Source: an uncultured beta proteobacterium
Lineage (GTDB): Bacteria; Pseudomonadota; Gammaproteobacteria; Burkholderiales; Burkholderiaceae
Direction of reading: 5' to 3'
DNA: 64,000 nucleotides
Assembly (NCBI GenBank): GCA_903875135.1
Contig: CAIQUZ010000062.1
Span: 1 to 64,000 of the forward strand
The notes beneath the pieces were generated by a model. That model was not told where the DNA came from, did no database searches, and saw only the letters and a program-made list of their open reading frames with translations. Of this stretch, positions 15,768-57,537 are shown piece by piece. The translations under genes were made by a program, and so were the position numbers. The first letter of the stretch is position 1. Every line of letters starts with the position of its first letter.

Positions 15768-17420
15768 TCACTGTTTACGAGGAACAGGGCTATTGGGTAT
15801 GGCGTTCTCATCTCTGCGAGATACATAGTCAGCATCACGCTCCATCCAAAGACCCTTTGTCGCTTGCAATGCATTGCCATCCCACTCCTCAGACCAATCC
15901 CCTAGGTCGTATCCAAACCAAGGAGATTCCGGCCTTAGCTCTGGCAAACCTAATTTTTCCCATAAGACTTTGGCATTTTCCATATATTCTTTTTTGGGTA
16001 ATGCAAGAGGTGGCATCGGATATTTCATCGTTGCATCAATCAACATCGCTGAATCAATCTCAGGGGTATATTCACTTCTAGGGCCATGACCCATTTCACG
16101 ATAACGAATGATTTGAATATCGTTTGCAGGGTCGCATCGATACGACATCGCCCATAAGACTGCATCAATATTATTGGGATCAATATCCTCATCAATGGCA
16201 ATCACGTATTTACCAATCGCTGCTTGAAGAGTCATTGTTCCATTTAAAGCTCGCCAAACTTCAGTCTTGGTTGATCCTTTGAAAAACTGCAAAAAGACTA
16301 CTTTTCTGAGGTTCGTTAAAGCTTCATGTAATACGACCTTTTTAATTCCTTTAATCGACAAACGATTTTTTAAATGAGATAAATACAGTGGCTCATAGGC
16401 TAATTTTTTAATCACGCTGGATTCACTAGGCGTCACTTGTGAAATAATCGACATAATAGTTGCTTTTTTTCGCCGAGTAATTGCTGTTACAGTCACTGCT
16501 GTATTGAAGTCTTCTAAAGCTACATAACCATGTGACTCACCAAAGGGTCCTTCAGGCTCTAAAAATGCGGTATCAACAAACCCTTCAATAACCACTTCTG
16601 ATTCAGCTGGAACAAGGATATCCACCGTATGACCCTTTACCGCTCGAATCGGAACTCCAGCTAATCCTCCGGCAACAGATAATTCATCGAGACCAATAGG
16701 TAGTTTTTGAGGCCCTTGAAAATTCACAAAAGGTGGACAGCCAATGACAATAGCGACTGGCATTTTTTCTCCACGAGCTTTATATTTTTTCCAGTGCTCC
16801 AAACCACCCGCGCGTAGATTGGCGAGCATCATCATTCCAAGACGGGTTGATGATTTGATTTGACCCCGATAAGTACCCATATTCTGAATGCCCGTATCTG
16901 GATCTCGCGTCGTGACGCACGCAGCCGTAATATAAGGTGCGGCGTCAAAGCCGGGAGTTGAAATTGGAAATGGTATCGACTCTAACCCATTACCAGCGCC
17001 TTCTAAATCTTTTCCTTGAATAATCATTTCATGGCATGGCGCTTCTTTGCTATCGACTATCACTGGCGCAATAGGGTGTGCAATGGCATGTTCCCAAGCA
17101 GGGCCTATATCATCAAAGGTCGGCACATTCATACCAATCCGATAAATCTCTGGATTTGCTGCTAAAGCACCAACCACAACATCAATGTCATAACGATGAC
17201 CGTGACTATCAACAACATTCGTAAATAAAAAAGCTTTTCTTTTATCCTCGGGGATTCCGCCACGGAATTGCCAACGTACTAGTGGATGAAGTTCAGTATC
17301 TTTATTAACCGGCTCCGAAATACGACACAATAAACCCGCTTGATCTAGGCGTTCGATGTGCTGACCTAAATCAACATATCCATATTGCGGGGTATCTACA
17401 CTTTTCTTATCGAGTCTCAT
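15768..17420 (-). CDS. UbiD-family prenylated-FMN decarboxylase
   Basis: A 550-residue member of the UbiD/Fdc family of reversible non-oxidative decarboxylases of aromatic or unsaturated acids. The catalytic set matches that of fungal Fdc1: R185 in NMGTYRG, then E290 and E295 in EPEGPFGE. The cofactor, prenylated FMN, requires UbiX, which is not in the window. It is the last gene of a six-gene operon with a Rieske oxygenase, a crotonase and two Bug proteins, pointing to breakdown of an aromatic acid. It is longer than UbiD itself (about 490), so a catabolic paralogue rather than the ubiquinone enzyme. Confidence 0.9.
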   Translation of the reverse strand: MRLDKKSVDTPQYGYVDLGQHIERLDQAGLLCRISEPVNKDTELHPLVRWQFRGGIPEDKRKAFLFTNVVDSHGHRYDIDVVVGALAANPEIYRIGMNVPTFDDIGPAWEHAIAHPIAPVIVDSKEAPCHEMIIQGKDLEGAGNGLESIPFPISTPGFDAAPYITAACVTTRDPDTGIQNMGTYRGQIKSSTRLGMMMLANLRAGGLEHWKKYKARGEKMPVAIVIGCPPFVNFQGPQKLPIGLDELSVAGGLAGVPIRAVKGHTVDILVPAESEVVIEGFVDTAFLEPEGPFGESHGYVALEDFNTAVTVTAITRRKKATIMSIISQVTPSESSVIKKLAYEPLYLSHLKNRLSIKGIKKVVLHEALTNLRKVVFLQFFKGSTKTEVWRALNGTMTLQAAIGKYVIAIDEDIDPNNIDAVLWAMSYRCDPANDIQIIRYREMGHGPRSEYTPEIDSAMLIDATMKYPMPPLALPKKEYMENAKVLWEKLGLPELRPESPWFGYDLGDWSEEWDGNALQATKGLWMERDADYVSRRDENAIPNSPVPRKQ

Positions 17421-19163: not shown

Positions 19164-19661
19164 TTAAACTGGATAAACTAAGGTTGTTGGCAATAGAATC
19201 GAGTCATAAACACAGACTCTTTCTCTAAATTTATAAACCCCGTCTTCGCTCACGATTTGATCTAAATAGCGCCCAGATAAAAGAATTTGAGTCTTGAAAT
19301 CAACTACGGTCTCAACAACTAATACATTTGCTTGAGCGTGAATCACTGCATCATCAATGCGATCAATCTTCACTCCTGAAACCACATGGCGAAAATATCT
19401 TGGCCGATACAATGTTGAATCTCTTAGTGCTAATACGCGATCTCGCAACATACCAATACTCTCACTATGCCAAACGGCAATTGGCATATTTAATTCATGA
19501 TTCTCTCGAGAAATAATCCGATATAAACACGGATTGGCAAAAAAAGTTAACCATTGACTTAAATCATCTTGATCCAACGCCAACGAATAGTCATTGTATA
19601 AATTTTGTATCTGATCTTTTAAGATCATCTGGTCTAATAGCATTTGTGATGTTGAACTCAT
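19164..19661 (-). CDS. Aromatic ring-hydroxylating oxygenase beta subunit
   Basis: Small structural subunit (165 residues) of a Rieske non-heme iron oxygenase, of the SnoaL-like cone fold. Recognisable features are the N-terminal YNDYSLALDQDDLSQWLTFF helix, the YRPRYFRHVVSGV segment and a C-terminal FRERVCVYDS strand. Its length fits salicylate-5-hydroxylase or anthranilate-type beta subunits (about 160). The start codon overlaps the alpha-subunit stop by 4 bp (ATGA), showing translational coupling. Confidence 0.88.
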   Translation of the reverse strand: MSSTSQMLLDQMILKDQIQNLYNDYSLALDQDDLSQWLTFFANPCLYRIISRENHELNMPIAVWHSESIGMLRDRVLALRDSTLYRPRYFRHVVSGVKIDRIDDAVIHAQANVLVVETVVDFKTQILLSGRYLDQIVSEDGVYKFRERVCVYDSILLPTTLVYPV

Positions 19662-20914
19662 AAGCCCATCACCTTCTTATAGTGCTGATAAAAACCTCGA
19701 ATCGCCACTTCAGTAATCATATGGTCAGTATCCTTAATATCTCGACCACCCATTTCTAGAACAGCTTGATGATTATCATACGGAAACATACCGGTTTGTG
19801 ACATGGCCAATACTTCACTATCGTCCGCAGAGACTAAGCCCGCTGGGCCCATTAAATTGGCCTGTCGGACACGCCGAAGAACCATTTCCTCTGTGTCATC
19901 AGCGTAACCAAAAAACGTCCAATGTAATTCAAAGACCCCAGGGCTTCTAGGAACTAATTGTCTCATTGCTAGGGTATTCGATTGTTGCTGAACAATAATA
20001 TTGGGAAATAATGTCAACATCACGACACTGTTATTGCCGACAAATTCTTTCACTACATCAAGAAGATTAGGATCTTCTAAAGTAAAGTTACTTCTTAAAT
20101 TATTTTTCATTTCATGAGCAGCTTCAGCAGTAGCTTGTCCTGCACGTCGGCTAATTAATGCGCTATGACGTCCAGTATCATCCATTTCTACAGCAGACTC
20201 TTGATCCATCCGAAACAAGCCAAAGGTCATTAAAAATACATGTAAAACGCTCGCATGATAAGGGTCTTTAATGTTCTCAAACATCAGCTTCCAATTACAA
20301 TCAATGCTCTGTCTTTCATAACCTAGTACGCGTAATTTCCTACCATCAAAGACCCTGTCAAAATAACCTAACATGTTAGGGCCAAGATAATCTTCAAATG
20401 GCTCAACAAGGTGGTCAAAGCTTGCAAAGACTACGCCATTTCTAACATGAGACTTAAGTGATTGGACAGCATGTTTGCTGAGGTCAAAATCGTCTGGCAT
20501 GCCGCCCTGCTTCTTATATCCACGACGAAAAGGAATGCCCACAAGCTTACCTTTTAAATCATAATTCCACTGGTGATATGGACAAGTAAAACTCTCCGCA
20601 TTACCACGCGCTTCTTTACAAAATGCCACACCTCGATGAGCACAACTATTAGCAATGACATTAATGGAGCCATCTTTGTCGCGCACCACAATGACAGGAC
20701 GGTCACCAACAGAAGTCTTCACAAAGTCGCCAGGGTTTGGGATTTCAACCTCTAATGCAACGTAGTTCCATGAAGGTCCGCCAAAAATTTTTTCTTGCTC
20801 ACGCCGATAGATTTCTTCATCGGTATATACCCAAAATGGAACCCTTGTTGGTCCCACATCAGGCCACACATATTCTGAACTAATGTGTGACATCGTTTGA
20901 CTTGCATCATTCAC
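19658..20914 (-). CDS. Rieske [2Fe-2S] aromatic ring-hydroxylating oxygenase alpha subunit
   Basis: Catalytic subunit (418 residues). The Rieske centre ligands are C91 and H93 (SCAHRG) and C111 and H114 (TCPYHQW). The mononuclear iron ligands H220 and H225 and bridging D217 are in DPYHASVLH. The N-terminus (FWVYTDEEIY, EIPNPGDF) resembles salicylate 5-hydroxylase (NagG) and anthranilate-oxygenase alpha subunits; this subgroup call is from memory. No ferredoxin or reductase gene is in the operon, so electrons must come from proteins encoded elsewhere. UbiD and crotonase genes downstream suggest a path in which hydroxylation, CoA chemistry and decarboxylation are combined. Confidence 0.91.
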   Translation of the reverse strand: MNDASQTMSHISSEYVWPDVGPTRVPFWVYTDEEIYRREQEKIFGGPSWNYVALEVEIPNPGDFVKTSVGDRPVIVVRDKDGSINVIANSCAHRGVAFCKEARGNAESFTCPYHQWNYDLKGKLVGIPFRRGYKKQGGMPDDFDLSKHAVQSLKSHVRNGVVFASFDHLVEPFEDYLGPNMLGYFDRVFDGRKLRVLGYERQSIDCNWKLMFENIKDPYHASVLHVFLMTFGLFRMDQESAVEMDDTGRHSALISRRAGQATAEAAHEMKNNLRSNFTLEDPNLLDVVKEFVGNNSVVMLTLFPNIIVQQQSNTLAMRQLVPRSPGVFELHWTFFGYADDTEEMVLRRVRQANLMGPAGLVSADDSEVLAMSQTGMFPYDNHQAVLEMGGRDIKDTDHMITEVAIRGFYQHYKKVMGL

Positions 20915-47504: not shown

Positions 47505-48407
47505 TCAAATACTCGGAAAGTCATAAAGAGACGCGGGATTGTCCGTAAGAATCTTTTGGATCAATTGCGGGGTTTGAGCCCAGTGAGCTAAACGATTTAA
47601 GGCATGCCCATCATTAATCAAGTGAAAAGGCTCAATCTCCTCTTTAGATCTCTTTTTGCCGTAATGCGCCCCTGAGTGCGGCCAGTCACTTCCCCAAACC
47701 ATGCGGTTGGTATTTGCCTCTATTAACATTCGGGCCAATTGAGCCACCAAAGCGGAATCTGGGTCATCAGATACCCTTTGCGGCGCTGATAACTTCATCC
47801 AAACATTGCCTTCTTTGAGCATTTTCAGTAATTGCAATACCTTCGGTTGTTCAAGTCCATCTAGAACTGGAACTCGAGCAAAATGGTCAAGCACCACGGG
47901 AACTTCACAACTCATCATATCTTTAGCAAGTTCCGTCACCATGTGAAGGCTAGAAAAAATTTGAATATGCCAACCAAATGGCTGAATTAACTTTGCCGTC
48001 ATTTGTAATTTATTTCGGGCAAATTCAGGATCTGCAACACCAGCAGTTTCCAGATTCAGTCTTGCCCCACGAAAACCGATTTGATGCAATTTCTCTAGAT
48101 CTGGAAAAGTGATCGTTGTTTCATCAATCACGGCAACCCCGCGCGCGTTAGTGCCGATCTTTGCAATCGCATCACTTGAGCGACGATTATCTGGCCCATA
48201 GGGGCTTGGATGCACAATCACTGTCCTTTGAATCCCTAAGGATAGATGCAAATCCCGTAGTTGTTCGATCGTAGAATCATCTGGTGTATAAGTTCGTTCC
48301 GTCCAATAAGGATATTGTTCTACAGGTCCAAAAATATGGGTATGGCAATCACAAGCGCCGACCGGTAGCTGGAATTGGATTTTTTCTTGCAAAGTAGCGG
48401 ACAACAT
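47505..48407 (-). CDS. Amidohydrolase-superfamily TIM-barrel hydrolase, PDC-hydrolase-like (module A)
   Basis: A 300-residue member of the amidohydrolase_2 family. The metal motif is DCHTHIFGP (H22, H24). A histidine in VVLDHFARVP and an aspartate in VWGSDWPHSG complete the expected site. The family includes 2-pyrone-4,6-dicarboxylate lactonase (LigI) and sulfomuconolactone hydrolase, which open lactone rings. Divergent from the class II aldolase gene, with 71 bp between starts. A similar enzyme is encoded at 52114-53001. Substrate is inference. Confidence 0.88.
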   Translation of the reverse strand: MLSATLQEKIQFQLPVGACDCHTHIFGPVEQYPYWTERTYTPDDSTIEQLRDLHLSLGIQRTVIVHPSPYGPDNRRSSDAIAKIGTNARGVAVIDETTITFPDLEKLHQIGFRGARLNLETAGVADPEFARNKLQMTAKLIQPFGWHIQIFSSLHMVTELAKDMMSCEVPVVLDHFARVPVLDGLEQPKVLQLLKMLKEGNVWMKLSAPQRVSDDPDSALVAQLARMLIEANTNRMVWGSDWPHSGAHYGKKRSKEEIEPFHLINDGHALNRLAHWAQTPQLIQKILTDNPASLYDFPSI

Positions 48408-48478
48408 AAGTTCCTTAAAATAGTTAATATCGATTGATAGTAATATTAATGTATATAAAAAAATAATTGAGGAGATTC

Positions 48479-49267
48479 ATGAATTACCAAACTAATTTCC
48501 CAACCCTTCAAGGCATAGTAAGCCCAGAAGAGTGGCAAGCAAGGGTTGAACTTGCAGCATGCTATCGATTAATCGATGCCTATGAAATGACAGATCTTAT
48601 TTATAACCATATCACCGCTAAAATTCCTGGTACAGATCATCTACTGATTAATTTATATGGCTTACTGTATAAAGAAATCACTGCCTCGAGCTTGGTCAAA
48701 ATCGATCTGACAGGCAAGATTCTTTACAAACCAGATACCGACTACGGAATTAACTTATCTGGGTATGTGATTCACGGTGCCATCCATGAAGCAAGGCCAG
48801 ATGTAGGTTGTGTCATTCACACCCACACAAGAGCAGGGATGGCGATATCAGTGATGGAATGCGGACTGTTACCCATCACCCAAACCTCGATGCGGTTTGT
48901 TGACCACCTTGGTTATCATGGCTATGAAGGCCCTGCTATTGATCTGGACGAGCGTCAGCGTTTAGCGGCTGACTTAGGTCCACACAATGCCATGATTTTT
49001 AAAAATCATGGCCTGTTAAGCTGCGGCCCTAGCGTTCAGGAAGCCTTTAATACCATGTATCAACTAGAGCTATCTTGCCGAGCTCAAGTTGATGCGATGG
49101 CAGGAAATACAAAATTAGTGATTCCTGATCAAGCGGTGCTAGATAAAACCGCCAACCTTTATCAACCAGGCACCAGAAGACCTTACGGAGTATTAGAGTG
49201 GCCAGCAATGGTGCGTCTTCTTGAGGCGCAGTCAAAAACTTCCGGTTATCCACGGTTTGATGCTTAA
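48479..49267 (+). CDS. Class II aldolase/adducin-family protein (module A)
   Basis: About 262 residues. The ATG at 48479 has GAGGAG just upstream; a TTG at 48467 is less likely. Metal-binding CVIHTHTRAG and the later NHGLLSCG give the usual zinc histidines. Members cleave or decarboxylate hydroxy-keto acids, often after phosphorylation. It is clearly related to the protein at 54015-54800, sharing EEWQARV.LAACYRLI and LELSCRAQ. It is followed by a Bug gene and an SDR gene on the same strand. Confidence 0.89.
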   Translation: MNYQTNFPTLQGIVSPEEWQARVELAACYRLIDAYEMTDLIYNHITAKIPGTDHLLINLYGLLYKEITASSLVKIDLTGKILYKPDTDYGINLSGYVIHGAIHEARPDVGCVIHTHTRAGMAISVMECGLLPITQTSMRFVDHLGYHGYEGPAIDLDERQRLAADLGPHNAMIFKNHGLLSCGPSVQEAFNTMYQLELSCRAQVDAMAGNTKLVIPDQAVLDKTANLYQPGTRRPYGVLEWPAMVRLLEAQSKTSGYPRFDA

Positions 49268-49289
49268 ATAAAAACAGAAAACAGAGCCA

Positions 49290-50267
49290 ATGAAAAAAAA
49301 TAATCTCTTACCCATCCTCTTTTTCTGTATAACTTTTTTCTGTAAACTTGCCACAGCAGAATCTGTAGCAGACTATCCGAGTAAGCCGATACACATTATC
49401 GTACCAGTCGCAGCTGGTGGGAATGTGGATATTGTGGCAAGAACCCTTGGAAATGAAATGTCCAAAATCTTAGGACAAACTGTCATTATTGAGAACAAAC
49501 CAAGTTCCGCATCGATTGTTGGAACACAATACGTCGCTAAAGCAGCCCCAGATGGCTATACCTTACTGGCACATTCCAGTACATTTTTTGCAGCTCCTCT
49601 CATTTCAACAAATGCTGGTTATGACCCCGTCAAAGACTTTGCTCCTATATCTCTCACCTGTAAGGTGGCGATGTTTGTCCTCGTTCACCCCAATATTCCT
49701 GCAAAAAACATTCAAGAATTTATTCAATTAGTCAAAGCCGATCCCGGCATGGCTGCTGCCAGTAGCGGTAACGGCTCCACAGGACATATGGCTACCGAAG
49801 TATTTGCCAATCGTGCAGGGATTAAATTTACCAACATCTTTTATAAAGGTAATGCGCAAGCCATGATTGATGTATTTAGCGGCCAAGTACCGATGATGTT
49901 TGACCAAATCAGTACCGGCACTCAGAATGCTAAAAGTGGCAAACTCCGGGCGCTGGCAATTACTAGCTTAGATAGATCATCACTAATGCCTGAAGTCCCA
50001 ACCCTTGCGGAATCAGGATTTCCTGGTTATGAAGATGTTACCTTGAATTTACTGGTAGCACCAGCAGGTACACCCAAAGAAATTATTCAAAAACTCCACT
50101 CTGCTGTCGTGAAAGCACTGAATCAAATTGAATTAAAAAATCGCTTTGCAGAAAAAGGGATTGATTTAGTCACTAGCTCTACGCCAGAAGATTTGGGAAA
50201 TATAATCAAATCAGAAGTATCTCGCTTACAAAAAGTAGCGAAAGCGGCAGGAATTAAACCCGATTAA
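49290..50267 (+). CDS. Bug/TctC-family periplasmic solute-binding protein 10
   Basis: A 325-residue protein, signal peptide about 1-23 (LATAE). The ligand loop is VAAGGNVDIVAR. The GGNVDIVAR core is identical to that of Bug 11 in the facing module. Where most family members carry an ENKPGA.G stretch, this one reads ENKPSSAS, losing two glycines. Lies 22 bp after the aldolase gene and 20 bp before the SDR gene. Confidence 0.92.
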   Translation: MKKNNLLPILFFCITFFCKLATAESVADYPSKPIHIIVPVAAGGNVDIVARTLGNEMSKILGQTVIIENKPSSASIVGTQYVAKAAPDGYTLLAHSSTFFAAPLISTNAGYDPVKDFAPISLTCKVAMFVLVHPNIPAKNIQEFIQLVKADPGMAAASSGNGSTGHMATEVFANRAGIKFTNIFYKGNAQAMIDVFSGQVPMMFDQISTGTQNAKSGKLRALAITSLDRSSLMPEVPTLAESGFPGYEDVTLNLLVAPAGTPKEIIQKLHSAVVKALNQIELKNRFAEKGIDLVTSSTPEDLGNIIKSEVSRLQKVAKAAGIKPD

Positions 50268-50287
50268 TGTTGAGATTAAAATAGCTT

Positions 50288-51142
50288 ATGTTGAACCTAA
50301 ACCAGAAAAATATTTTGATTACAGGGGCTAGTTCTGGGATCGGTAAAGTGACCGCCATTGAATTAGCAAAAATGGGCGCGAATGTATTTTTAGCCGGGAG
50401 ATCGAAAGATAAGCATGAAGCCGTCATCAGAGAACTTCATGCAGTTAACCCACACGGCAATTTCACATATCTACCCCTTGAACTTGCTAATTTAGACTCT
50501 GTTCGGACTTGTGCGCAGCAATTTTTAGATTTGAATCAGCCATTACATATTTTGATCAATAACGCTGGTGTATACGGTGAAAAAGGAATTACACAACAAG
50601 GATTTGAGATGCATTTTGGCGTTAATCATCTCGGTCATTTTTTATTAACACTGTTACTCTTAGATCTGATTAAAGCTTCTGCCCCTTCGCGAATTCTCAA
50701 TATAGCCAGCGGCGCTCATCGATACGCGACCCAGTGGGATTGGAATGCATTACAAATGTCAACAAAATCCATGACAACGATGACAGAGTATGGCGTATCA
50801 AAACTATCCAATATATTATTTACTACTGAACTTGCCGAGCAATTGAAAGATAATGGAGTGTTATGTTTGGCTATTCATCCAGGCATTGTAAAAACCGATA
50901 TTTGGCGACACCTTCCTGGCGCTGCACAATCACTCATGAATATTGCCCCCATACTAACACCCTCAGAAGGTGCAAAAAATACCTTATATGGCGTCACTGA
51001 ATGTCCTGCCTTAGAGCATGGGCAATTCTTAACGAATTGCCAACGAGAAATACCATCCCCACTCGGGCAGGACCGGTTATTAGCAAAAGAACTTTGGCAA
51101 CGAAGTCTGGAGTGGACGGGCTTAAACACTACTTCGGTCTAA
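50288..51142 (+). CDS. Short-chain dehydrogenase/reductase
   Basis: A 284-residue NAD(P)-dependent oxidoreductase. The nucleotide motif is ITGASSGIG (G13-G19), followed by LINNAG and the catalytic YGVSK near residue 164. The long C-terminal half resembles retinol-dehydrogenase-like SDRs. Last gene of the aldolase-Bug-SDR run, overlapping the convergent hydroxyacid dehydrogenase gene by 14 bp. Confidence 0.9.
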   Translation: MLNLNQKNILITGASSGIGKVTAIELAKMGANVFLAGRSKDKHEAVIRELHAVNPHGNFTYLPLELANLDSVRTCAQQFLDLNQPLHILINNAGVYGEKGITQQGFEMHFGVNHLGHFLLTLLLLDLIKASAPSRILNIASGAHRYATQWDWNALQMSTKSMTTMTEYGVSKLSNILFTTELAEQLKDNGVLCLAIHPGIVKTDIWRHLPGAAQSLMNIAPILTPSEGAKNTLYGVTECPALEHGQFLTNCQREIPSPLGQDRLLAKELWQRSLEWTGLNTTSV

Positions 51143-52100
51143 CAATCCAATCGCTCTCATCAAGAGCTAGCCCATTTTCAAATAAAGCAATATTTTTAAG
51201 CCCATGCCGTATGACACTGGTGACAGCTTCTTTAACACTACCGCCTGCGTGTGGAGTAACTACAATGTTGTCTAATGCAAATAAAGGGTTATTCATATCA
51301 GGGGGCTCATGATCAAAGACATCAAGTCCTGCCCCCAAAATTTGGTGATGCATAAGTGCATGAACCAAATCACCTTCATGAATTAATTCCCCACGCGCAG
51401 TGTTGACAAGAATGGCGGAGGGCTTCATTTGGGAAAGTGTTTTTTGGTTCACAATATGATGAGTTTGTGCATTGAATGGTGCATGTAAGCTAAGCACATC
51501 ACTTTGCGCAAACAAAGTATCTTGATCTACATACACAGTATGATATTGAAGTTCATCCTCTTTGGAGGCACGCTGGCGACTATAGTAAATAACTTTTACA
51601 TTAAAGCCCGATAATTGGCTTGCCACCTTTTTGGCGATATTGCCAAAGCCAAATAATCCAACTGTTTTATCTGCCAACTGCAAGCAACTTGTTTTTAGCT
51701 CGGCATTCACCCATTGACCAGCCAAGAATGCCCTTTGTGCATACGTAAGTCTTCGCAAGGTGGCAAGCATTAACAAAATAGTATGCTCTGCAACCTGCCC
51801 CGCGTTTGCCCCATTGGTAATGGCAACTGGGATTCCCCTCAATCGCGCCGCCTCAATGTTGATTTTATCGACGCCAATTCCCCACTTTTGTATCATTTTT
51901 AATTGAGTAGCTGCTCCCATGAGCTCATCATCAAGCCATGTGGCTCCGATAAAAACATAATCAGCACCTTGCAATACCTCGCGATGGGTATCTTTATCAT
52001 TTTTTTGTGCAAACTCGATTTCAAAACCAGCAGGTAAACAGCTGATCATTTCCTGCTGCAGTGCTGGCAACGCCGGGGTTAAAAAAGCAATTTTTGGCAT
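51129..52100 (-). CDS. D-2-hydroxyacid dehydrogenase family protein
   Basis: A 323-residue NAD-dependent dehydrogenase. The coenzyme motif is GLFGFGNIAKKVA. The catalytic triad is visible as Arg in NTARGEL, Glu in FDHEPP and His in VTPHAGG. Substrates in the family include glycerate, glyoxylate, phosphoglycerate and other 2-oxo acids. Downstream of amidohydrolase B by 13 bp, at the end of the minus-strand module B. Confidence 0.9.
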   Translation of the reverse strand: MPKIAFLTPALPALQQEMISCLPAGFEIEFAQKNDKDTHREVLQGADYVFIGATWLDDELMGAATQLKMIQKWGIGVDKINIEAARLRGIPVAITNGANAGQVAEHTILLMLATLRRLTYAQRAFLAGQWVNAELKTSCLQLADKTVGLFGFGNIAKKVASQLSGFNVKVIYYSRQRASKEDELQYHTVYVDQDTLFAQSDVLSLHAPFNAQTHHIVNQKTLSQMKPSAILVNTARGELIHEGDLVHALMHHQILGAGLDVFDHEPPDMNNPLFALDNIVVTPHAGGSVKEAVTSVIRHGLKNIALFENGLALDESDWIVRPK

Positions 52101-52113
52101 AAGGTCGGATGAA

Positions 52114-53001
52114 TTAAAAGTTGTATAGCTGAGCCGGATTTTTGACTAAGACTTGCTCTCGGTCTTTTTCATTTGGTAACCAGCGCAATAATAAATTCGT
52201 CAAATCGCCATCATCTGGAACGGCTGTTTTCTCAAAATAATTGATATGCGGCCAATCACTACCCCATACAATGCGTTCCAAATTGGCCTTGATAAGTGCT
52301 CCAGCAAACCCATCAACATCGTCATAATGATGTTGATGGGCACGAATTCGATCTGCGCCTGAGATCTTAACCCAAGCTGAACCATCACTGACCATCCTAC
52401 ATAAATACTGGAAACCTGGATGATGGATACCATGCACAGTATCCATACGCCCCATATGATCAATCACCAAAGGTAAACTTAACTTGATGAGCTTTGGCGC
52501 TAACTCTTGCAGATCAGGAGCATGCACCCAAATTTGAGCATGCCAACCTCTTGCTAGCATTCTTGGCGCGATCGCTTCTAATACCTCTAGACCAACACCA
52601 TTTCGATAAACAGCCTGACCATTCTTTCGCAATAAATTAAATCGGATACCACGAACACCTAAAGCATGCCAATGGTCCAGTTCCCCATCTGTGACATCGT
52701 TGTTGCACACGACGACACCACGAAAAATTGTCGGAAATGTCTGCAAAGCCTCTAATAGGCCCCCATTGTTTGTTCCACAAACACTGGCTGTCACAAGCAC
52801 CCCTCTGGAAAATCCGATTCTTTGTAGATGCGCTAAAAAATCATGAGCTGAATACTCCCCTGGGGTATAACTTCGATCTTCACTTAATGGGTACTTTGAA
52901 AAAGGGCCAAACACATGCACGTGACTATCACAGGCCAAGGATGGTGGCGAAAATAAAATCGGCTGAACAGACGATTTAGCAGGCAGACAAATTTTACTCA
53001 T
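52114..53001 (-). CDS. Amidohydrolase-superfamily TIM-barrel hydrolase, PDC-hydrolase-like (module B)
   Basis: A 295-residue member of the same family as the product of 47505-48407. Metal motif CDSHVHVFGP (H27, H29), LVIDHMGRMD, and IVWGSDWPHIN are all conserved. The shared N-terminal layout (a short lead, the HxH motif, then YP...RSYTPGEYS) and C-terminal NPAxLYxF show paralogy. It lies 3 bp after the Bug 11 stop, within Bug, amidohydrolase and dehydrogenase genes on the minus strand. Confidence 0.88.
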   Translation of the reverse strand: MSKICLPAKSSVQPILFSPPSLACDSHVHVFGPFSKYPLSEDRSYTPGEYSAHDFLAHLQRIGFSRGVLVTASVCGTNNGGLLEALQTFPTIFRGVVVCNNDVTDGELDHWHALGVRGIRFNLLRKNGQAVYRNGVGLEVLEAIAPRMLARGWHAQIWVHAPDLQELAPKLIKLSLPLVIDHMGRMDTVHGIHHPGFQYLCRMVSDGSAWVKISGADRIRAHQHHYDDVDGFAGALIKANLERIVWGSDWPHINYFEKTAVPDDGDLTNLLLRWLPNEKDREQVLVKNPAQLYNF

Positions 53002-53004
53002 GCC

Positions 53005-53976
53005 TTACTCAGCCTTTAATTTGCCAGCTTGTGCTAGTTTTTGAGAGTTTAGTGACTCTTGATTTAATAACGCTCCCCATTCTTGAGGTGTAGATGATTT
53101 CGCAATACTACCCACACCAGTGAGCCGTATTTTATAAGCCGGATCATTCACCGCTTTGATTAAAGCCATATTTAATACTTTAATGATTTCAGGTGATGTT
53201 CCTGGGGGAGCCAATAAACCAGAGGTGGTATTTGCTTCAAGCTCAACTCGAGTAGATTCTAAAAATGTAGGTGTATTTGGAATCGAACTATCTCGATCTT
53301 TTGACAAAACTGCAAGTAACTTTAACTTTCCAGAATCAACAAAGCCTTTAGAACTCGATAATTGATCAATCATAAAGTCTAATTGCCCGCCCATCAAATC
53401 CGTCAACGCAGGGGTTGATCCTTTGTAGGGAATCACATTAAATTCAGCTCGCATCACGTCTTCGATCCTTAATACGGTTATATGGTTCGACGTTCCCAAA
53501 CCTGAGTGTCCTACAGAAATTCGACCAGGCTCTTTTTTGGCTAGGGTGATCAAGCTACTTGTGTCAGGGAAACGTTGATCATCTGCACGTACCACAATCA
53601 CTAATGGTGAAATCGCCGCCAATCCAACCGGTTGAAAATTTGATGGTTTATAAGGGGGATTTTTCATCATGTACGGCAACACGGATATGGTGTTTGTTGT
53701 AGCGAGTAATAAGGTATAACCATCAGGCTCGGCTCTAGAGACAAAAGCTGACCCAATTGAACCGCCGGCTCCAGCTCGGTTATCCACCAAGATGGATTGT
53801 CCTAAAACGTTACTCAAACTTTGAGCCACTGCTCTAGCCACAATATCCACGTTACCGCCAGGAGCAAACGGCGCAACGATTGTCAAAGGCTTATTAGGAA
53901 AACTTTGGGCACTTGCCAAAGTACATGCCGCCATCCACCCCAAAAAAGTAAGCCATTTCTTGATTAATTGAACCAT
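53005..53976 (-). CDS. Bug/TctC-family periplasmic solute-binding protein 11
   Basis: A 323-residue protein, signal peptide about 1-23 (LASAQ). The ligand loop is FAPGGNVDIVAR. The overall sequence is only moderately similar to Bug 10 despite the same loop core. Lies 38 bp downstream of aldolase B and 3 bp upstream of amidohydrolase B, in a four-gene minus-strand unit. Confidence 0.92.
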   Translation of the reverse strand: MVQLIKKWLTFLGWMAACTLASAQSFPNKPLTIVAPFAPGGNVDIVARAVAQSLSNVLGQSILVDNRAGAGGSIGSAFVSRAEPDGYTLLLATTNTISVLPYMMKNPPYKPSNFQPVGLAAISPLVIVVRADDQRFPDTSSLITLAKKEPGRISVGHSGLGTSNHITVLRIEDVMRAEFNVIPYKGSTPALTDLMGGQLDFMIDQLSSSKGFVDSGKLKLLAVLSKDRDSSIPNTPTFLESTRVELEANTTSGLLAPPGTSPEIIKVLNMALIKAVNDPAYKIRLTGVGSIAKSSTPQEWGALLNQESLNSQKLAQAGKLKAE

Positions 53977-54014
53977 ATTGCCTCCTCATTATTTTTTTAG
54001 TGTGAGACCAAACT

Positions 54015-54800
54015 CTATCCTCTAAAGCTAGAATCTAAACGATCCATCATTCTTAATAAAGCTGGCCATTCCATGACGCCATAAGGACGCCTGACTTGTG
54101 GCTGATAATTCATATATGTTTCATGCAACACTTGTTCAGAAACCTCTTGTAAAGGTGAATGACATGACATGGCTGCGATTTGTGCCCGACAAGAGAGTTC
54201 TAAACGATGCATCCAATTAAAGGCTTCACCAACTGTTCTTCCTACTGTTAGCAGGCCATGATTGCGAAGTATTAAAGCTTCAGCACTCCCTAAGTCTTTG
54301 ACTAACACTTCTTGCTCCGCCAAGTCTAAAACAACTCCCATATAGTCATGATAGGCAATTTTTAAAAATCGCATGGAAGTTTGATTGAGGGGTCGCAATC
54401 CACACTTTAAAGATGAAACAGCCATACCCGCGTATGTGTGAGTGTGAATGACACAAGCCACCTCTGGTCTGGCATGATGAATTGCACTGTGCAAAATATA
54501 ACCAGGCTGATTGAATCCATAGTTCAATTCACCAAAATCCGGTTTGAATAATATTTCACCATCATGAGTAATTTTGATAAAACAAGAGGCTGTCATTTCT
54601 TCATACATCATCCCGTAAGGATTGATGAGGAAAGCGTCTTCTTCTCCGGGCACACGTAGCGTAATATGATTCGCAATCATATCGGACATTCCATAGTGCG
54701 CAATTAACCGATAGCAGGCTGCCAGATCAACTCTGGCTTGCCACTCTTCTGAGCTAATCATATTCTTGAGTGACTTTAGTAATAACGGTCCGGAATTCAT
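54015..54800 (-). CDS. Class II aldolase/adducin-family protein (module B)
   Basis: About 261 residues from the ATG at 54800; the open frame extends upstream to a GTG at 54881, but the module A paralogue supports the shorter start. Metal site CVIHTHTYAG and RNHGLLTVG are intact. By eye about half of the residues match the protein of 48479-49267. First gene of module B. No strong ribosome binding site is visible. Confidence 0.87.
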   Translation of the reverse strand: MNSGPLLLKSLKNMISSEEWQARVDLAACYRLIAHYGMSDMIANHITLRVPGEEDAFLINPYGMMYEEMTASCFIKITHDGEILFKPDFGELNYGFNQPGYILHSAIHHARPEVACVIHTHTYAGMAVSSLKCGLRPLNQTSMRFLKIAYHDYMGVVLDLAEQEVLVKDLGSAEALILRNHGLLTVGRTVGEAFNWMHRLELSCRAQIAAMSCHSPLQEVSEQVLHETYMNYQPQVRRPYGVMEWPALLRMMDRLDSSFRG

Positions 54801-55086: not shown

Positions 55087-56061
55087 ATGAAATGCAAAAT
55101 AGCATTGTTACTTTTTCTATGGGTACAAAGCGGTATATCTTTGGCTCAGCCAGCAAATTGGACCCCCTCCAAACCCGTCCGATTAATTGTTCCTCAAGTA
55201 GCAGGTGGCGGCGCAGATGCTATCGGTAGAACAATCGGACAAGCATTATCTGATAACTTAGGTCAACCCGTCATCGTGGATAACCGCCCAGGAACCAATG
55301 GTGGTGTGGGTGTCGATAATCTTTTAAATTCCCCAGCTGATGGGTATAACTTAATCCTAGTGTATACCTCATTGATGGCGATTAATCCGGCTGTTTATGA
55401 AAAAATAAGCTATAGCCCAATGAGGGACTTGAAGCCCTTAGGTGCTGTTTGTGAAGTCCCGCTCGTCATGATTGCGAGTTCAAAAGTTCCAGCCAACAAT
55501 ATGAGGGAACTCATCAATTCATTAAAGGGTGATCCCCAAAGTATCTTCGGTGCATCTAGTGGAAATGGATCTTTTTCTCATATGATGATCGAAATTATGA
55601 ATACGAAGATTGGTGTCAAGATGACGCATATCCCCTTTAAAGGTGAAGGTCCCGCTGTCGCCCATGTACTCAGCGGTCAAGACTCTATTATCTATATCGG
55701 GACGCCAGCTATTATTTTGTCGCAAGTGCAAGCCGGTAAATTAAAGGCGTTGGGAGTCACCACGTCCCATAGAATGCGTCAAATACCCAACGTGCCTACC
55801 TTCGCTGAAGGTGGCATCACAGACTTTAACGAAAGCTTTTGGTATGGTCTTGCGGCATCTGCTAATACCCCATCACATATTGTCGAGGCTTATAGCAAAG
55901 TGGTTTCAGAAATTTCTCGCTCCGAATCTTTGCAAACTTCCTTAGGGAAGATGGGTTGTGATCCATTGCCATTAAATGCTAATGAGTTCTCCGATAAAGT
56001 ACGTAATGATATGAAAAAATATTCCGCAATTGCAAAAGCTGTCAATATGAAAGTCGACTAA
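55087..56061 (+). CDS. Bug/TctC-family periplasmic solute-binding protein 12
   Basis: A 324-residue protein, signal peptide about 1-20 (SLAQ). The ligand loop is QVAGGGADAIGR, the most divergent of the thirteen at the proline position. The DGY motif is followed by NLILVYTSL rather than TLL. Followed after 1 bp by a VOC gene and then an FAH gene, so it probably belongs to a ring-cleavage or hydrolysis pathway. Confidence 0.91.
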   Translation: MKCKIALLLFLWVQSGISLAQPANWTPSKPVRLIVPQVAGGGADAIGRTIGQALSDNLGQPVIVDNRPGTNGGVGVDNLLNSPADGYNLILVYTSLMAINPAVYEKISYSPMRDLKPLGAVCEVPLVMIASSKVPANNMRELINSLKGDPQSIFGASSGNGSFSHMMIEIMNTKIGVKMTHIPFKGEGPAVAHVLSGQDSIIYIGTPAIILSQVQAGKLKALGVTTSHRMRQIPNVPTFAEGGITDFNESFWYGLAASANTPSHIVEAYSKVVSEISRSESLQTSLGKMGCDPLPLNANEFSDKVRNDMKKYSAIAKAVNMKVD

Positions 56062-56062
56062 T

Positions 56063-56611
56063 ATGGCTAAAATTCCTCAAATCAAACACCTCGGACTGTA
56101 CGTCGATCATCTCGATGTGATGGAGCAGTTTTATACCTCTGTCTTTGATCTCATCGTGACAGATCGTGGTCAAGTACCCCGCTTAGGCAATCGTAATATT
56201 GTCTTCTTGAGTGGTACCGATGATGCTCATCACCAATTAGTTCTGATTGACGGTAAAGATCCGAAGAGTGGACCAAGTGTTGTTTTTCAAATGTCTTTCT
56301 TTGTCGATGAACTCAACGATTTACGTCGTGTTGAAAAAAGACTCATCGCAAACAACATTACAAGCATTACCCCCATTACACATGGTAATGCTTGGTCGAT
56401 TTACTCACATGATCCAGAGGGAAATGGTTTAGAAATCTACATGGATACTCCATGGCACGTATCTCAACCTCATGGCAAACCATTCGATTTGTCGCAAACT
56501 GATGAGCAAATTTATGACTATACTCAAGCACTCATTCAGGAACACCCAAGCTTTAGTAGCCAAGAAGATTGGCGCAACCAGATGTTTTCTAAAATCAATA
56601 CAATCAATTAA
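56063..56611 (+). CDS. VOC-family protein resembling extradiol ring-cleavage dioxygenases
   Basis: A 182-residue vicinal-oxygen-chelate protein. Candidate iron ligands are a His in IKHLGLYVDH, a His in HHQLVLID and a Glu in GNGLEIYMDTPW, the same His-His-Glu arrangement as catechol 2,3-dioxygenases. The DTPW and QPHGKPFDL ending also resembles that group. It is much shorter than two-module extradiol enzymes (about 290-300), so it has only one module. Placed between a Bug gene and an FAH-family hydrolase gene. Ring-cleavage activity is inference. Confidence 0.85.
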   Translation: MAKIPQIKHLGLYVDHLDVMEQFYTSVFDLIVTDRGQVPRLGNRNIVFLSGTDDAHHQLVLIDGKDPKSGPSVVFQMSFFVDELNDLRRVEKRLIANNITSITPITHGNAWSIYSHDPEGNGLEIYMDTPWHVSQPHGKPFDLSQTDEQIYDYTQALIQEHPSFSSQEDWRNQMFSKINTIN

Positions 56612-56649
56612 TCATCAACCACTTCTTTTTTTAACGATAAGGAACACCA

Positions 56650-57537
56650 ATGAAGTTAGTCTCTTTTTTACATGCAGGACAAGTCCATTACGGCGCAGTT
56701 AAGGGCAAAAAAGTTGTCGACCTCAGCGCTAGACTAGGTGGACTCTACCCAAATATTATTCAATTTATTGCCGGCGATGGACAGTCGGTTGCCCAATCGG
56801 TGATCAATGAATCCGCCGGTGATTTTGACTACGATAGTTTGCATCTTCTATCCGTCATTCCAAACCCTGGGAAAACTTTTTGTGTTGGTCTGAACTATCA
56901 TGACCACGTCGATGAAGCGAACCGTGCTATTGGTAATCGTAAGGCACCTGACCGGGCAATGATTTTTGCACGTTGGCCAGAATCATTAACCGGTCACAAA
57001 CAACCGATTTTGCGCCCAAAAGTTTCTCAAATGCTGGACTGGGAAGCGGAACTCCTCGTCGTTATTGGTAAGCCAACTGGACGCTACGTAACAAAAGATA
57101 AAGCACTGAGTTATATCTTTGGCTATGCTTGTCTGAATGAAGCTTGCCTGAGGGATTATCAACGTCACTCTAGCCAAATTAACCCCGGTAAGAATTTTGA
57201 GAAGACAGGTGCTAATGGTCCATGGTTAGTCACGGCAGATGAAATTCCCGATCCAATGAATCTGAATATCGAAATGCGACTCAATGGCCAGGTGATGCAA
57301 AAAGCCAATACAGCGAACATGATTCACTCTATTCAAGCAACGATTGAGTACATCACAGAATGGACTACTTTACAACCTGGTGATTTGATTGCCACAGGAA
57401 CTATGGGTGGTGTAGGTTTTGCTAGAACTCCACCGATTTTCATGAAACCGGGAGATATTGCTGAAATCGAGATTGAAAAAATCGGTATATTAAGTAACCA
57501 TATCGAGGACGAACCTACCAATTTAGGGCCTCGCTAA
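56650..57537 (+). CDS. Fumarylacetoacetate hydrolase-family protein
   Basis: A 295-residue FAH-fold hydrolase, isomerase or decarboxylase. An N-terminal domain (about 1-75) precedes the catalytic core, which has FCVGLNYHDHVDEA, the metal-binding DWEAELLVVIG and the late GDLIATGTMGGVG. Family members act on dioxo acids from aromatic ring cleavage, or on acylpyruvates and oxaloacetate. The upstream VOC gene, 38 bp away, fits a meta-cleavage order. Followed by a palindromic hairpin, convergent with Bug 13. Confidence 0.9.
   Translation: MKLVSFLHAGQVHYGAVKGKKVVDLSARLGGLYPNIIQFIAGDGQSVAQSVINESAGDFDYDSLHLLSVIPNPGKTFCVGLNYHDHVDEANRAIGNRKAPDRAMIFARWPESLTGHKQPILRPKVSQMLDWEAELLVVIGKPTGRYVTKDKALSYIFGYACLNEACLRDYQRHSSQINPGKNFEKTGANGPWLVTADEIPDPMNLNIEMRLNGQVMQKANTANMIHSIQATIEYITEWTTLQPGDLIATGTMGGVGFARTPPIFMKPGDIAEIEIEKIGILSNHIEDEPTNLGPR

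Follow-up and report, generated by a model that had tools for sequence, protein, structure and literature searches.

The tricarballylate (tcu) operon of Salmonella consists of tcuR, tcuA, tcuB and tcuC, and is not known to contain a gene for a class II aldolase-fold protein, a D-2-hydroxyacid dehydrogenase (D2HDH), an amidohydrolase (AMH) or a TctC-type (Bug) receptor. Among class II aldolase-fold proteins, TqaM and NovR are non-haem Fe(II) enzymes that remove carbon oxidatively, and adducins, which fall in the same branch as the proteins described below, are structural proteins. We compared with these systems a locus at positions 47505–54800 of the window, a 64-kb stretch of a 69-kb contig (CAIQUZ010000062.1) from the 2.7-Mb draft genome (92.8% complete) of an uncultured beta proteobacterium (Burkholderiaceae). 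Two gene modules face each other there, each combining an adducin-type class II aldolase-fold protein (ALD), an AMH and a Bug. Judging from the sequences, we assign a probability of about 0.5 to the reading that they are two cassettes for uptake and catabolism of small hydroxylated or lactonised C4–C6 (poly)carboxylic acids.

An original prediction, made from the letters alone, had listed two facing modules with eight genes; all eight open reading frames (ORFs) are present on the strands it gave, and Pfam and NCBIfam bear out the families:

47505–48407, minus strand: AMH-A, Amidohydro_2 (Pfam PF04909), LigI-like branch, putative lactonase
48408–48481, no strand: divergent gap between AMH-A and ALD-A, 74 bp if ALD-A starts at ATG 48482 (ORF coordinates)
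48482–49267, plus strand: ALD-A, PRK07044 subfamily (NF005451, 314.8 bits, cut-off 207); alternative TTG start at 48467
49290–50267, plus strand: BUG-A, TctC-type periplasmic receptor (PF03401)
50288–51142, plus strand: SDR oxidoreductase (PF00106)
51129–52100, minus strand: D2HDH (PF02826/PF00389)
52114–53001, minus strand: AMH-B, LigI-like branch, putative lactonase (PF04909)
53005–53976, minus strand: BUG-B, TctC-type receptor, paired with AMH-B (PF03401)
54015–54800, minus strand: ALD-B, PRK07044 subfamily (NF005451, 310.3 bits, cut-off 207)

Module A comprises AMH-A and, on the opposite strand, ALD-A, BUG-A and the SDR gene; module B comprises ALD-B, BUG-B, AMH-B and D2HDH. The SDR and D2HDH genes converge, their ends sharing 14 bp, and the 74-bp gap is a possible bidirectional promoter region. 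ALD-A and ALD-B are 54% identical, close to the half that had been estimated by eye. The two Bugs score 228.3 and 194.4 bits with PF03401 (gathering score 27), and D2HDH scores 66.2 bits with PF00389 (24.6) and 196.4 with PF02826 (25.1). A genome scan found four nearest relatives, all metagenome-assembled genomes (loci L037–L040), one of which (L038) ends inside the locus; the other three keep the facing layout of both modules. This recurrence, and that of module B across genera, is more than chance. As the original prediction supposed, the gene set appears to be undescribed: none of the papers listed in our searches of open-licence literature was seen to describe it.

Module B and the tricarballylate genes

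The original prediction was to fall if relatives of the genes were not co-located in other genomes; module B withstands this test, and module A does so weakly. In a family-level sample of 299 genomes, that of the window included, AMH-B orthologues were defined by E below 1e-115 (the next AMH match has 8e-72). All 14 orthologues outside the window's genome lie 1.1–1.3 kb from an ALD-B orthologue, and in each of the 12 loci retrieved (those of G079 and G249 were left out) BUG-B stands between ALD-B and AMH-B. Neighbour counts are based on a tblastn table; simple ORF calling mislabels some GC-rich antisense frames.

The ten retrieved Cupriavidus loci share the order tcuA-tcuB-ALD-B-BUG-B-AMH-B-Bug-D2HDH, with tcuA-tcuB immediately upstream, and the order in L081 (C. 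campinensis) is identical. Four distinct Cupriavidus loci (L101–L103, picked as ALD matches without AMH-B, and L088, which is the same as L100) read tcuA-tcuB-ALD-Bug-D2HDH, without BUG-B and AMH-B. All tested TcuA (L049, L083 and L084) and TcuB (L084 and L100) proteins pass their NCBIfam cut-offs, TcuA of L049 with 779 bits (cut-off 369) and TcuB of L100 with 705 (cut-off 524). Given this gene order, and the absence of the pair from four loci, the core of module B resembles an addition to the tricarballylate operon that has yet to be characterised; BUG-B and AMH-B together look like a unit of gain and loss, a removable cartridge. Variovorax RA8 has tcuA-tcuB-ALD-D2HDH-MmgE (Pfam MmgE_PrpD), and in Comamonas antarctica ALD-Bug-D2HDH lies near tcuA-tcuB. 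Neither the tcuAB link in these three genera nor the behaviour of BUG-B and AMH-B as a unit had been foreseen in the original prediction.

An order-level sample of 399 genomes holds three further AMH-B orthologues. All three adjoin a relative of BUG-B (43–44% identity) and only one adjoins ALD-B; BUG-B and AMH-B are therefore the tightest pair, and the core they join consists of ALD and D2HDH, with or without a Bug. Two genomes of the window's genus, G235 and G111, carry MmgE-ALD-B-BUG-B-AMH-B-D2HDH and then a gene for a family III CoA transferase, but no tcu genes at this place (Pfam on the G235 genes). At the window locus, too, tcuA-tcuB was not found adjoining module B; the window's genome has one tcuA above the cut-off, on another contig, and G111, G235 and G253 have one each.

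The D2HDH of the window is not orthologous to those of other module B loci (28–36% identity). A split with 97/97 support separates it and its three near-relative orthologues from the D2HDHs that come after AMH-B or a Bug in those other loci. G235 and G111 have a second D2HDH upstream of MmgE, which falls on the window's side of this split on a long branch, and still other D2HDH types lie near other ALDs (L041, L068 and L087). The same place, occupied by the same enzyme class from a different lineage, suggests that D2HDH activity is needed at module B. An acidic residue in the dinucleotide loop is typical of NAD enzymes, and since the loop of the window enzyme, YYSRQR, has none, this D2HDH probably favours NADP(H).

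Active-site residues

Both ALDs belong to the PRK07044 class II aldolase/adducin subfamily, above the cut-off of NF005451. In an alignment to E. coli FucA, seven ALDs, the structures 3ocr and 4xxf, and TqaM keep the three metal histidines and have Gly and Gln in place of Glu73 and Tyr113. ALD-A and ALD-B accordingly hold equivalents of H92, H94 and H155, and also of His77, and neither of them has the catalytic Glu73 or Tyr113. This loss calls for caution about aldol cleavage: splitting by the ALDs, which the original prediction had assumed, lacks support, and "class II aldolase" is best read here as a label for the fold, with the activity putative.

Extracts of two papers describe the same loss in pyruvic oxime dioxygenase (POD), an Fe(II) enzyme whose Glu164 and Tyr233' take over the lost positions (PMC11841055, PMC5216522); Glu164 takes the place of FucA Glu73, directly before the conserved Gly165 (PMC11841055, extract). 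An Alcaligenes cluster with a POD homologue also holds a TctC gene, according to an extract of a third paper (PMC8629993). In the Y-x-G stretch of the ALDs, the residue before Gly is Glu in ALD-A, Met in ALD-B and Gln, Arg or Trp in relatives of ALD-B; exceptions are L063, which has Glu, and L050, L057 and L082, which are nearer ALD-A in the tree and have Gln. Although the POD sequence lies outside our alignment, Glu-Gly of ALD-A is, by inference, a plausible match to Glu164-Gly165. By profile comparison, the PDB sequences nearest to the ALDs are 3ocr, adducins and 4xxf, then TqaM and NovR, all ahead of FucA. The nearest, 3ocr, carries no function in its name; 4xxf was deposited as fuculose-1-phosphate aldolase, yet has no equivalents of Glu73 and Tyr113.

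Some ALDs end in a C-terminal motif, RRP(Y/F)G..EW. Of the 37 rows with this motif, 35 (all but L047 and L050) have an AMH or D2HDH gene no more than 3 kb away; of the 20 rows lacking it, 5 do (Fisher p 8e-8). This association is only descriptive, since the rows, from loci chosen by ALD matches, share ancestry and the motif was selected with the alignment in view. These counts exclude L100, a duplicate of the CH34 locus, and L104–L108, picked for AMH-B. The tree backbone gives no support for the motif-bearing ALDs as one clade. A different setting is seen for an ALD relative in L087, the Klebsiella pneumoniae plasmid pKP121-2, where MFS-ALD-GhrA-type reductase-Zn-dependent hydrolase-RraA-MFS-RidA is flanked by transposases on both sides.

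The two AMHs had been said to share motifs. They are indeed related, though only 35% identical, and LigI (4d8l) is the best PDB match of both. Aligned to 4d8l, both keep H31, H33, Y49, R124, H180, R217 and D248, of which we take H31, H33, H180 and D248 to be hydrolytic; D248 is also the residue that differs in the LigI entries 4dia and 4di8. Arg130 and Tyr156, presumably residues of the LigI site, are replaced by Ala and Phe in AMH-A and by Lys and Trp in AMH-B, and Trp156 is found in 17/17 AMH-B orthologue rows. With the hydrolytic residues kept, the lactonase-like function proposed earlier is plausible. The only NCBIfam model matched by either protein, NF042924 (4-sulfomuconolactone hydrolase), gives 187.8 bits for AMH-A and 219.2 for AMH-B against a cut-off of 500, and does not discriminate, because the LigI of the same genome scores 215 with it as well.

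This LigI is encoded on contig C91 (L078, 1149–9192), in a lig cluster that also holds LigK (402 bits, cut-off 304.5), a class III extradiol dioxygenase beta subunit (503.6 bits, cut-off 317), a Pfam LigA subunit and a Bug; three further ORFs were named by eye as LigC-, LigJ- and PobA-like (Pfam GFO_IDH_MocA, Amidohydro_2 and FAD_binding_3). Assigned by tree (from which 2ffi and one distant row, L061, were dropped), the C91 protein pairs with 4d8l at 100/99 support and keeps all nine residues, including Arg130 and Tyr156. No lig gene neighbourhood was found at the AMH-A/B locus. Taken together, the kept hydrolytic residues, the changes at Arg130 and Tyr156 and the separate lig cluster with a true LigI mark AMH-A and AMH-B as putative hydrolases of the LigI branch with another ligand.

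Module A, receptors and neighbouring genes

ALD-A, AMH-A and BUG-A occur together in all three near relatives that cover them (L037, L039 and L040). Only the window and L037 have the SDR gene; the corresponding intervals of L039 and L040 lack it. Missing from two of three near relatives, the SDR was rejected as a member of module A. The two parallel routes with different dehydrogenases of the original prediction are thus not upheld: the SDR is not conserved, and D2HDH is the recurrent partner of the ALDs. Outside the near relatives the trio was seen only in one Cupriavidus locus, L043 (AMH-A 47%, BUG-A 47%). None of the remaining 14 AMH-A matches in the family sample (36–45%) lies near an ALD among the ALD matches listed.

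An origin of the two modules by duplication of a whole module is unsupported, as BUG-A and BUG-B fall apart in a quick tree and the nearest kin of AMH-A include the ALD-free loci L089–L093. Duplication retains some probability, because the trees that had been proposed as a check leave the order of AMH clades and the ALD backbone poorly settled.

Near the AMH-A relatives of L089–L093, a gene of the isocitrate/isopropylmalate dehydrogenase family is present in four of five loci (not L092; Pfam on L090 and L093). More widely, AMH paralogues in L076, L089, L090, L091 and L093 lie near genes of this family, which is another recurrent hydroxy-acid combination; a Bug accompanies it in L076, L089 and L090, the last of which also has a cupin. 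In L092, L094 and L095, AMH paralogues form a pair with an MFS transporter and ALD is missing. MFS transporters of this type (aromatic-acid/sialate-like, below cut-off) also accompany ALD-AMH in L044, L045, L057 and L082.

The window's genome has 114 TctC/Bug matches (a few of them fragments) against one TctA match, in a genus with genomes of 1.2–2.9 Mb; 13 of the Bugs lie in the window. First-look counts of Bug candidates in 61 genomes of the genus range from 4 to 169. The loop core GGNVDIVAR, noticed earlier in both module Bugs, is indeed present in both and, by pattern search, not in the other 11 window Bugs (one of the 13 gave no loop). It fails as a sign of kinship: with 35% identity, BUG-A and BUG-B are no closer to each other than to other Bugs of the window, and the Bug tree separates them, BUG-A grouping with the Bugs of L037, L039, L040 and L043.

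Beyond module B, positions 55087–57537 hold a Bug, a glyoxalase-family gene and a FAH-family gene, the last resembling 2,4-didehydro-3-deoxy-L-rhamnonate hydrolase with a score below cut-off; the Bug and the glyoxalase are also there in L039. Elsewhere in the window, a UbiD-type decarboxylase gene (15768–17420) and genes for Rieske ring-hydroxylating subunits (alpha 19658–20914, beta 19164–19661) lie in a stretch with several Bugs. In L059, a neighbouring chemotaxis-receptor gene scored only below model cut-offs and was set aside.

Proposed route, alternatives and described systems

Families, residue states, gene order and the link of the module B core with tcuA-tcuB in Cupriavidus come from computation; the reactions are proposed. 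A Bug would capture an acid or lactone and hand it over to a tripartite tricarboxylate transporter, of which one TctA was detected. The LigI-like AMH would open a lactone to the hydroxy acid, consistent with its kept hydrolytic residues, D2HDH, by its family, would interconvert 2-hydroxy and 2-oxo forms, and the ALD, as a metalloenzyme, would break a C–C bond of the 2-oxo acid through a mechanism that depends on Fe(II) or differs in some other way from that of FucA. We favour C4–C6 di- or tricarboxylates as substrates because of the tcu and MmgE links and the receptors of tripartite tricarboxylate transporter type. A more specific version of this proposal is tentative: the tcu-linked ALDs would form an uncharacterised class II aldolase-fold group, probably Fe(II)-dependent, that acts on 2-oxo polycarboxylates together with D2HDH; ALD-A (Glu) and ALD-B (Met/Gln) would differ in chemistry within a single locus, and BUG-B with AMH-B would be a plug-in extending the reach of the operon to the substrate in its lactone form.

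Several observations weigh against the two-cassette reading. Outside the near relatives, module A hangs on one locus (L043); a same-genus relative of ALD-A in G235 (75%) has a divergent D2HDH instead and no AMH within 3 kb, and five retrieved AMH-A relatives (L089–L093, 40–45% identity) have no ALD neighbours. For module B, two of the three order-level AMH-B orthologues have the BUG-B relative and no ALD within the retrieved 16 kb; no ALD lies beside tcuA in any of four tested genomes of the window's genus, and a second tcuAB in a Cupriavidus genome (G261) also comes without ALD. The AMHs reach no NCBIfam cut-off, so that their lactonase activity is deduced from residues only. Finally, ALD-A and ALD-B may run different reactions, since ALD-B has no Glu at the possibly catalytic position.

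The alternatives differ mainly in what they make of the ALD. The model first proposed for this locus, in which two parallel routes open a lactone and then split a hydroxy-2-oxo acid by a genuine Zn(II) retro-aldol reaction, draws on the family labels, on the three metal histidines and the His77 equivalent, on the Glu of ALD-A just before Gly, as in POD Glu164-Gly165 (PMC11841055, extract), and on 4xxf, deposited as an aldolase without the same two residues. We consider it rather unlikely: Gly and Gln replace Glu73 and Tyr113 in 7/7 aligned ALDs, the alternative Glu position is taken by Met, Gln, Arg or Trp in the majority of ALD-B-like rows (with L063 as an exception that has Glu), and the SDR is not conserved. 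Alternatively, D2HDH might oxidise a D-2-hydroxy acid to a 2-oxo acid, from which the ALD, as a non-haem Fe(II) oxygenase, removes carbon oxidatively like NovR or TqaM. That TqaM and NovR are nearer than FucA among PDB sequences, albeit after 3ocr, adducins and 4xxf, points this way, as does the related Fe(II) precedent of POD with the same double loss (PMC11841055, PMC5216522, extracts). The loop YYSRQR of D2HDH, by contrast, suggests NADPH-driven reduction in vivo, 3ocr has no function in its name and adducins, which share the branch, serve as structural proteins; we regard oxidative removal of carbon as possible, though doubtful.

Two further explanations concern the locus as a whole. Chance neighbours without a common pathway might be expected in so Bug-rich a genome, where 114 TctC matches in a 2.7-Mb draft put a Bug near many genes; the SDR and some partners vary, and beyond the near relatives module A shows little conservation. 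For module B, chance is contradicted by AMH-B, BUG-B and ALD-B, which keep order and orientation across genera, making this explanation improbable overall. That the AMHs are 2-pyrone-4,6-dicarboxylate lactonases of the protocatechuate 4,5-cleavage (lig) route has in its favour that LigI is the best PDB match of both. We rejected this as extremely unlikely: the pyrone route, also part of the original prediction, is already encoded by the C91 lig cluster with its own LigI, and AMH-A and AMH-B lack Arg130.

Under the two-cassette reading, a common and functionally blank "class II aldolase/adducin" subfamily gains a concrete and testable setting, a tricarballylate-type operon in Cupriavidus, the laboratory strain C. 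metallidurans CH34 included. The residues also caution against calling these ALD genes aldolases, and the receptor-plus-hydrolase cartridge offers a way of matching orphan Bug receptors to their substrates, a problem still to be solved for Bug-rich bacteria.

Among described systems, the lumichrome (riboflavin) catabolic enzymes LumW-LumY-LumX, as an extract of their description gives them, open a pyrone, hydrate the product and then cleave it by retro-aldol reaction to pyruvate and acetoacetate (PMC12746152); the enzymes of that pathway, a hydrolase with cobalt and a hydratase of the cupin type, are different ones, and the window locus shows no evidence of flavin catabolism. The AMHs resemble 4-sulfomuconolactone hydrolase as their lone NCBIfam match, yet score far below its cut-off. 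With LigI (cog3618) they share the fold family and seven kept residues, but they have lost Arg130, are changed at Tyr156, lack lig neighbours and coexist with a separate LigI. The ALDs share with FucA the fold family and the three metal histidines, but not Glu73 and Tyr113. That loss is common to the ALDs, to TqaM in our alignment and to POD in the extracts cited above, NovR being outside the alignment; sequence similarity to all three is only distant, and the AMH and D2HDH neighbours set the ALDs apart. From the tcu operon the locus differs in that tcuAB and module B are unlinked in the window's genus, whereas in Cupriavidus and Variovorax the ALD-D2HDH core comes directly after tcuA-tcuB that score above their cut-offs.

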